Shown here piece after piece: positions 8,622 through 11,202 of a stretch of DNA of 64,000 nt (within the stretch, counting starts at the first letter, position 1; each line of letters begins with the position of its first letter). This DNA comes from Acidobacteriota bacterium (GTDB taxonomy: Bacteria; Acidobacteriota; Vicinamibacteria; Vicinamibacterales; 2-12-FULL-66-21), in NCBI GenBank assembly GCA_003222675.1, contig QHWT01000049.1, forward strand, positions 167,313-231,312. The letters run 5' to 3'. Both the position numbers and the translations under genes were made by a program. Below the pieces are notes generated by a model. The model had not been told where the DNA came from and ran no database searches. It saw only the letters and a list, made by a program, of their open reading frames with translations.

Positions 8622-9763
8622 TCAAACACCAACCGCGCGCGCCTCGACGAGCGCGCGGACGTGTTCGCCGCTCAACCCGAGATCAGTGCGGAGAATCGAT
8701 CGCGTGTGCTGGCCGAGCGTCGGCGGCGCGCTGCGGATCGCCGGTGGCGTGTCAGACATCTTCACCGGATTCCCCAGCACGCGCAGGCGCCCGATCGTGG
8801 CGTGCGGCAGGTCGACGATCATGTCGCGCGCGTGGAGCTGCGGATCGGCGAGCGTCTCGAGCACGCTGCGCACGTCCACGACGCGAAGAGCGCCTGCAGC
8901 GCGGACCGGAGCGCGTCGTAATGCGCCACACGCGACGCGTTCGTGGCAAAGCGCGGATCCGTGGCAAGCTCCGGCTGTTTCAGCACCTCTGCCAGCCGCC
9001 TGAACTGATCGTCGTTCCCCACCGACAGCACGAAGTCGCCATCGGATGCCGTGAACGTGTCGTACGGCGCGATCGACGGATGCCGGTTGCCCATGCGCGC
9101 GGGAGTCGCGCCCGTCGCGAATGCGATAGCTGCCTGGTAGGTCAGCAGCGCAGCCACCGAGTCGAGCATCGCGACATCCACGCACTGGCCGCGACCCGTT
9201 CGCTCGCGCGCGTAGAGTGCGGCGAGAATGCCTTGCGCGGCAAACAGGCCGGTGGCGATGTCAGCGATCGCGATGCCCAGCCGGAACGGCGGACCATCCG
9301 CGTCGCCGGTAATGCTCATCAGGCCCCCTTCCGCCTGCATCATCGCGTCGTAGCCCGCCTCCGTCCGTCGTGGGCCCGTCTGACCGAACCCCGAGATCGA
9401 GCAATACACGAGCTGCGGATGGCTCTTCGTCACACTCGCTGCATCCAGCCCGAGGCGCGCCATCGTTCCGGGGCGAAAATTCTCCACGACGACATCCGCG
9501 CGTTCGAGCAGGGCGCGGACGATCCCGTGCGCCGCCTCGTGCTTCAAGTCGAGCGCGAGGCTTTCCTTGTTCCGATTGATGCTCAGGAAATACGCGCTCT
9601 CGTCCTGGACGAACGGCGGCCCCCACGCGCGCGTGTCGTCACCGCGGCCGGGCTGCTCGATCTTGATGACCCGGGCCCCCAGGTCGGCGAGCTGCATCGT
9701 GCAGTACGGCCCGGCCAGCACGCGGCTGAAATCAAGGACGGTCACGCCGTTGAGCGGAGTCAT
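8622..9763 (-). pseudogene. CaiB/BaiF-type CoA transferase (class III), internal deletion with frameshift
   Basis: The N-terminal frame (9763 down to about 8885) reads as a class III CoA transferase. It has GVTVLDFSRVLAGPY, the INRNKESLALDL segment, VVENFRPGTMARLGLD, ISGFGQTGP and QGILAALYARERTGRGQ. At about 8875-8885 the family-like sequence jumps to another frame, which continues as VDVRSVLETLADPQLHARDM to the stop at 8622. Roughly 15-20 residues normally present between the LFA and VDVRS segments are missing. As it stands the gene cannot make a full-length enzyme. The start chosen is ATG at 9763 (MTPLNGVTV). A sequencing or assembly error is the main alternative. Confidence 0.85.
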
Positions 9764-9764
9764 G

Positions 9765-9945
9765 TCGATTTGGTAATTTGGCGATTCCAGTGATTTGGTG
9801 ATTTGTGATCGGAGAGCGGCCAATGTTGCCGGGTCTGAAGACCCGGCCTACAATCGGATCGCAGGGCGGCTCTTCAGAGCCGCCGACGGCGAAATCACCA
9901 ATTACCAAATCACCAAATCACCAAATCACCAAATCACAAGATCAC
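9765..9945. repeat. Composite element: paired hairpins flanked by inverted GATTTGGTGATT arms
   Basis: Left arm (about 9768-9812) is made of GATTTGGTGATTTG words and right arm (about 9890-9945) of their complement, AAATCACCAAATCACC. Between them lie hairpin A (GCCGGGTCTGAAGACCCGGC, about 9831-9850) and hairpin B (GGCGGCTCTTCAGAGCCGCC, about 9867-9886). The whole fills the gap before the glutaredoxin-like gene. Confidence 0.75.
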
Positions 9946-9947
9946 CG

Positions 9948-10202
9948 ATGAAGATCGTCGTCTATTCCGGCGCGCATTGACGCGCGTGCGACATGGTGAA
10001 GGAGTTTCTTTCACGCGCAGGGCACACGTTTGAAACCAGGAACATCGAGGAAGACGATCAGGCCTATAGCGAGCTCCTGGCGCTTGGCGCGCGGTCGGTT
10101 CCAGTGACCCTGATCGGTGATCGCATGATTACCGGCTTCGATCAGGCGCAGCTCCGCTCCGCGCTTGCCGATGCCGGCGACCCACCGTCACGAGATCGCT
10201 GA
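9948..10202 (+). CDS. Probable selenocysteine-containing glutaredoxin-like protein (in-frame TGA at 9978)
   Basis: The frame reads MKIVVYSGAH-TGA-RACDMVKEFL and continues to a TGA stop at 10200-10202, giving 84 residues if the first TGA is decoded. The fold is glutaredoxin/NrdH-like: an N-terminal beta strand, the redox site, helix MVKEFLSRAG, then a cis-Pro loop SVPVT and a C-terminal GFD segment. The internal TGA falls exactly where the first Cys of the CxxC site should be, giving U-R-A-C. A stem-loop follows at 9982-10018. Sec-containing glutaredoxins are known in bacteria. The Sec machinery is not in the window. A nonsense mutation is the alternative. The 3' end overlaps hom on the other strand. 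Confidence 0.8.
9982..10018 (+). promoter_or_regulatory. Candidate bacterial SECIS stem-loop
   Basis: Directly after the TGA (9978-9980), GTGAAGGA (9996-10003) can pair with TCTTTCAC (10007-10014), including one G-U pair. This leaves an apical loop GTT that begins with G. A lower stem GCGC (9982-9985) with GCGC (10015-10018) encloses a left-hand bulge. The apical loop is 23 nt past the TGA, within the range usually reported for bacterial SECIS elements. Pairing was done by eye, not by a folding program. Confidence 0.6.
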
Positions 10203-11202
10203 GCAGCGCGTACGCGGTCTGCGTCAGGCCGCCGGCCAGCTGCGTCATCGCGATCTCGCCGAGCACGTCCGTCTGCAGGATGAGCGCGTTCGCCACGCCG
10301 CGCAGGCCGGCGAGCAAATCGCTTTCGGGTAACTCGATCGGCCGCACCGAGGTCGCCACGCCGCCGGCCGTGCGTTTTGCCGATGCCACCAGCCGCACGC
10401 GCGCACCGCGTCCCTTCGCCGCCATGGCCAGCCGTGCGGTCGTTTGCTCGATCCCTTCGCGATCCACGGCCTGGGGCGTCATGCGCGCGCGCATCAGCAC
10501 GTTCGCCAACGCGGCTGTCTTTGCCGCCGCATCCCATCCATCCACGTCCAGCGACGGATCTGCTTCCGCGATTCCGTCGGCCTGCATTCGCGCCAGGGCG
10601 CCGTCGAAGCTCTCGCCATCCTCGATGGCCGAGAGGATGTGGTTGGTCGTGCTGTTGATGACGCCGCGGAATCCAAGAATGTCGACGGCAGGCAACGTCT
10701 CTCGAACGAGATTGAAAATGGGGACGCCGTCCATGACCGCGCCTTCGAACAGGAACGACACCCCGCGATCCGCGGCAAGCGCGCTGAGTTCCTCGTACGC
10801 GAACGCGGCAGGGCCCTTGTTCGCCGTGACGACGTGGCACCCCGATTCGAGCGCCGCACGCACGTGATCGATCGCCGGCTGTCCCGCTGCGATGTCGAGC
10901 GTCGTCGTTTCCACGACGATCTTCAGCGGGCTGTCGCTGCCGGCGAGTCTGCGAATCACCCCGAAGCTGTCGGCGGGCGCCGCCGCGTCGGCGTCGAGCG
11001 CGTCCGATCCCTGCCGATCCGCCGCCGCCACGGCATCGATCCCCTGCGCGCGGAAGATGCAGCCGTTATGTGCGGTGGCGATACCGATGACGCGGCAATC
11101 GAGCTCGTAATCGAGCGCGAGCCAGTCGCGCCGCTCTTCGAGCAGCCTCGCGAACCTGCGTCCGACATGGCCGAAGCCGATGAGCGCGAGATCAGCGCGC
11201 AT
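10129..11202 (-). CDS. hom: Homoserine dehydrogenase
   Basis: This 357-residue enzyme reduces aspartate-semialdehyde to homoserine on the Thr/Met branch. It shows the NAD(P)-binding GFGHVGRRF at residues 9-17, the ETTTLD strand, VVTANKGP with the catalytic Lys, and the family signature FRGVINSTTNHIL. Downstream is a segment EADPSLDVDGWDAAAK, as in the family. There is no C-terminal ACT regulatory domain, so allosteric Thr control of the ACT type is not expected. Its last 74 bp overlap the glutaredoxin-like gene on the opposite strand. Its start overlaps the aminotransferase stop by 11 bp, suggesting an operon. Confidence 0.93.
   Translation of the reverse strand: MRADLALIGFGHVGRRFARLLEERRDWLALDYELDCRVIGIATAHNGCIFRAQGIDAVAAADRQGSDALDADAAAPADSFGVIRRLAGSDSPLKIVVETTTLDIAAGQPAIDHVRAALESGCHVVTANKGPAAFAYEELSALAADRGVSFLFEGAVMDGVPIFNLVRETLPAVDILGFRGVINSTTNHILSAIEDGESFDGALARMQADGIAEADPSLDVDGWDAAAKTAALANVLMRARMTPQAVDREGIEQTTARLAMAAKGRGARVRLVASAKRTAGGVATSVRPIELPESDLLAGLRGVANALILQTDVLGEIAMTQLAGGLTQTAYALLSDLVTVGRRHRQARSGAAPDRSR

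Follow-up and report, generated by a model that had tools for sequence, protein, structure and literature searches.

Does an in-frame TGA early in a small redoxin gene of a soil-type acidobacterium encode selenocysteine (Sec), or does it end the protein? The gene lies on the forward strand at 9948-10202 of the 64,000-nucleotide stretch of Acidobacteriota DNA that we analysed (the window, to which all positions refer). It starts at ATG 9948, meets TGA at codon 11 (9978-9980), and stays open in frame for another 73 codons to a terminal TGA at 10200-10202, so that an ORF finder breaks it in two. With Sec at codon 11, the 84-residue translation begins MKIVVYSGAHURACDMVKEFLSRAG, making Sec the first residue of a UxxC site whose second, resolving Cys is the TGC at 9987-9989. 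An earlier reading made from the sequence only had noted that the TGA stands where the first Cys of a CxxC motif belongs, that glutaredoxin-like sequence continues for about 73 residues beyond it, and that the gene would be read through with Sec. The first two observations hold in the 9948-10202 frame, which matches Pfam Glutaredoxin (PF00462) over residues 3-61 with E 9.1e-12 and a score of 45.4 bits, the cut-off being 22.9, and the third is supported by conservation in 38 genomes, a SECIS element, the Sec machinery, and Cys-containing homologues. The codon 11 UGA is thus almost certainly recoded as Sec, and we put at about 95% the probability that the locus encodes a UxxC selenoprotein of glutaredoxin/NrdH-like type, with SECIS-driven decoding as the whole explanation.

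The strongest of this evidence is comparative. Searching 193 genomes of the window's class and aligning each TGA-containing orthologue, we detected 38 orthologues, with TGA in the identical column in 38/38 and the Cys at U+3 (Cys14 in the window protein) kept in every one. A scan of genome contigs with the alignment as query gave matches whose named assemblies include Acidobacteria, Vicinamibacterales, and Luteitalea metagenome-assembled genomes (MAGs). The closest orthologue, from the same genus, encodes a protein 87% identical and has the same TGA, past which 18 codons differ synonymously between the two genes and 9 change the amino acid, a ratio indicating purifying selection on the frame beyond the TGA. 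Because the codon is shared by this relative and by all 38 orthologues, it is not a chance occurrence. The sequence-only reading had named a nonsense mutation as the case that would overturn it; such a glutaredoxin pseudogene, created by mutation or sequencing error at codon 11 and not read through, would fit the split ORF, the lack of a Shine-Dalgarno sequence in the window copy, and the decayed look of one relative (L039). It is nevertheless very improbable and is rejected on the conservation of the TGA across 38 genomes, to which the conserved open frame past it, a covarying SECIS, and complete Sec machinery in the genome can be added.

A Cys beneath the TGA had been proposed as a sign of Sec, and Cys is what aligns there in a Clostridia homologue (L083, TGC), a Syntrophomonadaceae homologue (L091, TGT), and the in-class paralogues L061-L063. 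Farther relatives with Sec were found in MAGs of Bacillota, Chloroflexi, and Tectomicrobia. The class tally stands at 38 Sec orthologues, 0 Cys orthologues seen, and 1 apparently decayed Arg copy. In this last copy, L039, CGA replaces the Sec TGA and the downstream, C-terminal frame differs; its genome (G040) has selA and selB matches, and the copy appears to reflect either a recent loss or an assembly error. A further locus, labelled Woeseiaceae by its submitter (L078), was considered as a transfer to gammaproteobacteria, which we did not accept because its gene neighbourhood and protein are the same as those of L026 from the window's class (G156). Separately, two class genomes carry a second, distant glutaredoxin-like frame in which a TGA would encode the first residue of UMFC (L064:1513-1584 and L065:1630-1701), followed downstream by GTGAAGGAGTTCCTTCGC or ACGAAGGAGTTCCTTCGC; these frames are possibly a second Sec-glutaredoxin family.

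Just 3' of the UGA, the forward strand contains a predicted bacterial SECIS stem-loop at 9996-10014, GUGAAGGA-GUU-UCUUUCAC, with 8-bp arms (9996-10003 and 10007-10014) that start 15 nt past the UGA. Its GUU apical loop (10004-10006) lies 23 nt past the UGA, exactly where a loop starting with G had been described from the letters. The published bacterial SECIS (bSECIS) model specifies an upper stem of 4-16 bp, a loop of 3-9 nt with G in its first two positions, a distance of 16-37 nt from the UGA, and a minimum free energy (MFE) <= -7.5 kcal/mol (PMC13188914). The window element agrees with all of these (8 bp, GUU, 23 nt, and -16.9 kcal/mol for the 48-nt segment holding the stem-loop), and its TGA-plus-SECIS pattern, with 3 mismatches tolerated, occurs once in the 7.16-Mb genome, at 9978. 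An Rfam search returned no SECIS family and matches at chance level only.

Folding energy by itself sets the window copy apart only modestly (z of about -1.8 to -1.9); the case for the SECIS is carried by comparison among relatives. In 39 sequences from 38 genomes, 97.4% of cells are paired in the stem, and two stem pairs have changed in a compensatory way, A-U becoming G-C or C-G (11 cells). The covariation score was reached by 0 of 500 shuffles, a control that ignores relatedness, and pairing falls to 31-68% when the partner is shifted by 1-3 columns. Codon usage points to synonymous constraint as well: across the first 29 TGA loci the stem codons are nearly fixed (GTG 29/29, TCA 29/29, CTT 28/29, GAG 28/28), Leu and Ser outside the stem of the same genes are mostly CTG/CTC and AGC/TCG, respectively, and GC3 for the same residues is 44% within the stem versus 81% elsewhere in the genes. 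Among the Cys forms, L083 is without the stem (GUGAAGGAGUUUCUCAGCC) and L091 retains GTGAAAGAGTTTCTTTCA, as might be expected after a recent change from Sec to Cys.

The sequence-only reading had also predicted selA, selB, selC, and selD elsewhere in the genome, and we detected the full set. The window genome (7.16 Mb, 99.9% complete, 3.9% contamination) has selA (443 bits), selB (335 bits), a tRNA-Sec (61.4 bits) that ARAGORN reports as tRNA-SeC with anticodon TCA (UCA), and selD (L049, G000:C36:78330-79259; 344 bits). The last has an in-frame TGA in its active site, CAG-U-ASK, and SelD is likely itself a selenoprotein. A weak second SelA-like match in a 465-codon frame (L002, G000:C33:464-1225; 51.5 bits) is probably another PLP enzyme. 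SelA and SelB also occur in the genus relative (G001), and SelA was found in 37/38 genomes with the Sec-redoxin versus 122/155 others (Fisher p = 0.003, with phylogeny ignored), the sole Sec-redoxin genome without a match being 57% complete. This machinery also bears on the idea that suppression or an altered genetic code places some residue other than Sec, such as Cys or Trp, at the UGA. Nothing specific favours that idea, and with tRNA-Sec, selA/B/D, and a SECIS all present, and with TGA serving as the terminator of the redoxin gene and several orthologues, we regard it as exceedingly improbable. For recoding as Sec, we infer from sequence, structure, and conservation that UGA 9978-9980 would be decoded by Sec-tRNA(UCA) on SelB, with the stem-loop at 9996-10014 acting as the recoding signal.

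One more alternative is an independent downstream gene of 69 aa that begins at ATG 9993-9995 and is without the active site. That ATG is present in the window, but the codon is GAG in G001 and non-ATG in most relatives, so this start is not conserved; the shorter protein would moreover lack two conserved features, the Cys/Sec site and the beta strand at the N-terminus, and we give this possibility almost no weight. In the window copy of the Sec-containing frame, ATG 9948 is not preceded by an evident Shine-Dalgarno sequence; a short tandem repeat occupies that place, and expression may therefore be weak. Because relative L004 has GGAGGAGG in the same upstream place without the repeat insert, the redoxin gene of the window may have lost its ribosome-binding site to the insert. 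The repeats at 9767-9946 form an inverted pair, each member built of 8-nt units (GATTTGGTGATTTG... and five steps of AAATCACC) that flanks a short stretch immediately 5' of the redoxin ATG. The sequence GATTTGGTGATTT also occurs at 1633 and 29345, with 0.01 occurrences expected.

Most orthologous loci place the redoxin between a divergent family III CoA-transferase gene and a convergent homoserine dehydrogenase gene, with aminotransferase and FGE-sulfatase-like genes farther out, and we treat this conserved co-location as a lead rather than as a function. In the window, the family III CoA-transferase (Pfam PF02515) lies on the reverse strand at 8622-9764, and its frame is broken near 8873-8876. 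A tblastn search with an intact relative recovered it in two pieces, whereas in the genus relative (L067) a single frame covers the gene; the split is either a real frameshift or an assembly error. The homoserine dehydrogenase gene (Pfam PF00742) occupies the reverse strand at 10129-11202 and overlaps the 3' part of the redoxin frame by 74 nt, which may add constraint on that part.

What kind of protein this gene would encode is indicated by several comparisons. An AlphaFold2 model (pLDDT 88.5) has the glutaredoxin/thioredoxin (Grx/NrdH) fold, the conserved Pro (P52) is invariant in both protein alignments, and a CxxC-type site is present. The solved structures closest to the model are cGrx1 (7c10; TM 0.82 by query length, rmsd 0.8 A), BC3987, and NrdH, and cGrx1 (7c10/7c12) is also the best PDB match by sequence. 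NCBIfam models ranked YruB-like, NrdH-like, Grx3, and Uxx-star, all under their curated cut-offs, including TIGR02196 (YruB family, 62.2 bits against 88.55), TIGR02194 (NrdH, 50.4 against 85.75), and Uxx-star NF041212 (37.4 against 66). The original description as glutaredoxin-like stands for fold and family, with one refinement: a search of the window genome for glutathione synthetase GshB (PF02955) detected none, with an E. coli control giving a match. A GCS2 ligase is present. We accordingly use 'glutaredoxin' as the name of a fold and family, with glutathione use not implied.

The protein is very probably a dithiol-disulfide oxidoreductase. By analogy with glutaredoxin and thioredoxin chemistry, Sec11 would be the attacking residue of the U-R-A-C site and would become linked to the substrate through a selenenylsulfide or mixed bond, Cys14 would resolve that bond, and a cellular reductant would then restore the reduced redoxin. 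Because no glutathione synthetase was found in the window genome, thioredoxin reductase or a non-glutathione small thiol is the more likely reductant, with a route linked to thioredoxin reductase somewhat favoured. We tentatively suggest, as a possibility rather than an expectation, that the class has a redoxin lineage that is almost obligatorily Sec-containing and glutathione-independent, with a dedicated partner unlike the Sec-MsrA reported for the Clostridium Sec-glutaredoxin. Why a thiol redoxin in this class retains Sec so strictly, and what its reductant is, are the questions that these genes raise.

With this locus, an environmental class of acidobacteria, represented here mostly by metagenome-assembled genomes, gains a Sec protein with good support, one whose gene ordinary ORF callers truncate at the TGA. 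Its unusually uniform SECIS, natural compensatory variants, and Cys relatives with and without SECIS-like codons also offer a test set for SelB recognition. The nearest known system is cGrx1 (7c10/7c12), which we take to be the Sec-glutaredoxin of Clostridium oremlandii. The native protein is reportedly a UxxC selenoprotein (Kim et al. 2011). The window protein resembles it in fold (TM 0.82, rmsd 0.8 A), in sequence (36-37% identity), and in the position of the dithiol site, and differs in having U-R-A-C where cGrx1 has x-PHC. Both MsrA genes that we found in the window genome are without an internal stop, so the pairing of Sec-Grx with Sec-MsrA reported for Clostridium is not reproduced. NrdH-redoxin and YruB proteins are the best curated sequence relatives and have a similar fold (1h75, 4fiw), though the window protein falls below both cut-offs; to our knowledge, these two families have Cys and not Sec. 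Uxx-star proteins (NF041212 and its subfamilies) are likewise small and glutaredoxin-like with Sec at the same place, but the window protein lies under their cut-off and retains the second Cys at U+3.

Sec-glutaredoxins are included in a 2026 review, which, in the portion concerned with them, cites Kim et al. 2011 under a title reporting the Sec-MsrA partner (PMC13188914). UxxC Sec-glutaredoxins had been reported in 2005 and 2006 from Geobacter, Alkaliphilus, and the Sargasso Sea metagenome (PMC1088965, PMC1794560). As presented in excerpts of those reports, they share with the window protein a small size, the UxxC site, and a downstream bacterial SECIS, and they belong to other lineages, the same excerpts describing neither a Vicinamibacterial branch nor its gene neighbourhood. 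Our literature search, which covered mainly open-access papers, likewise found no description of such a branch. Judged from these sequence comparisons, the window protein would belong to a kind known since 2005, the Sec-glutaredoxins, and what appears to be new is a class-wide, nearly Sec-only Vicinamibacterial branch of it.
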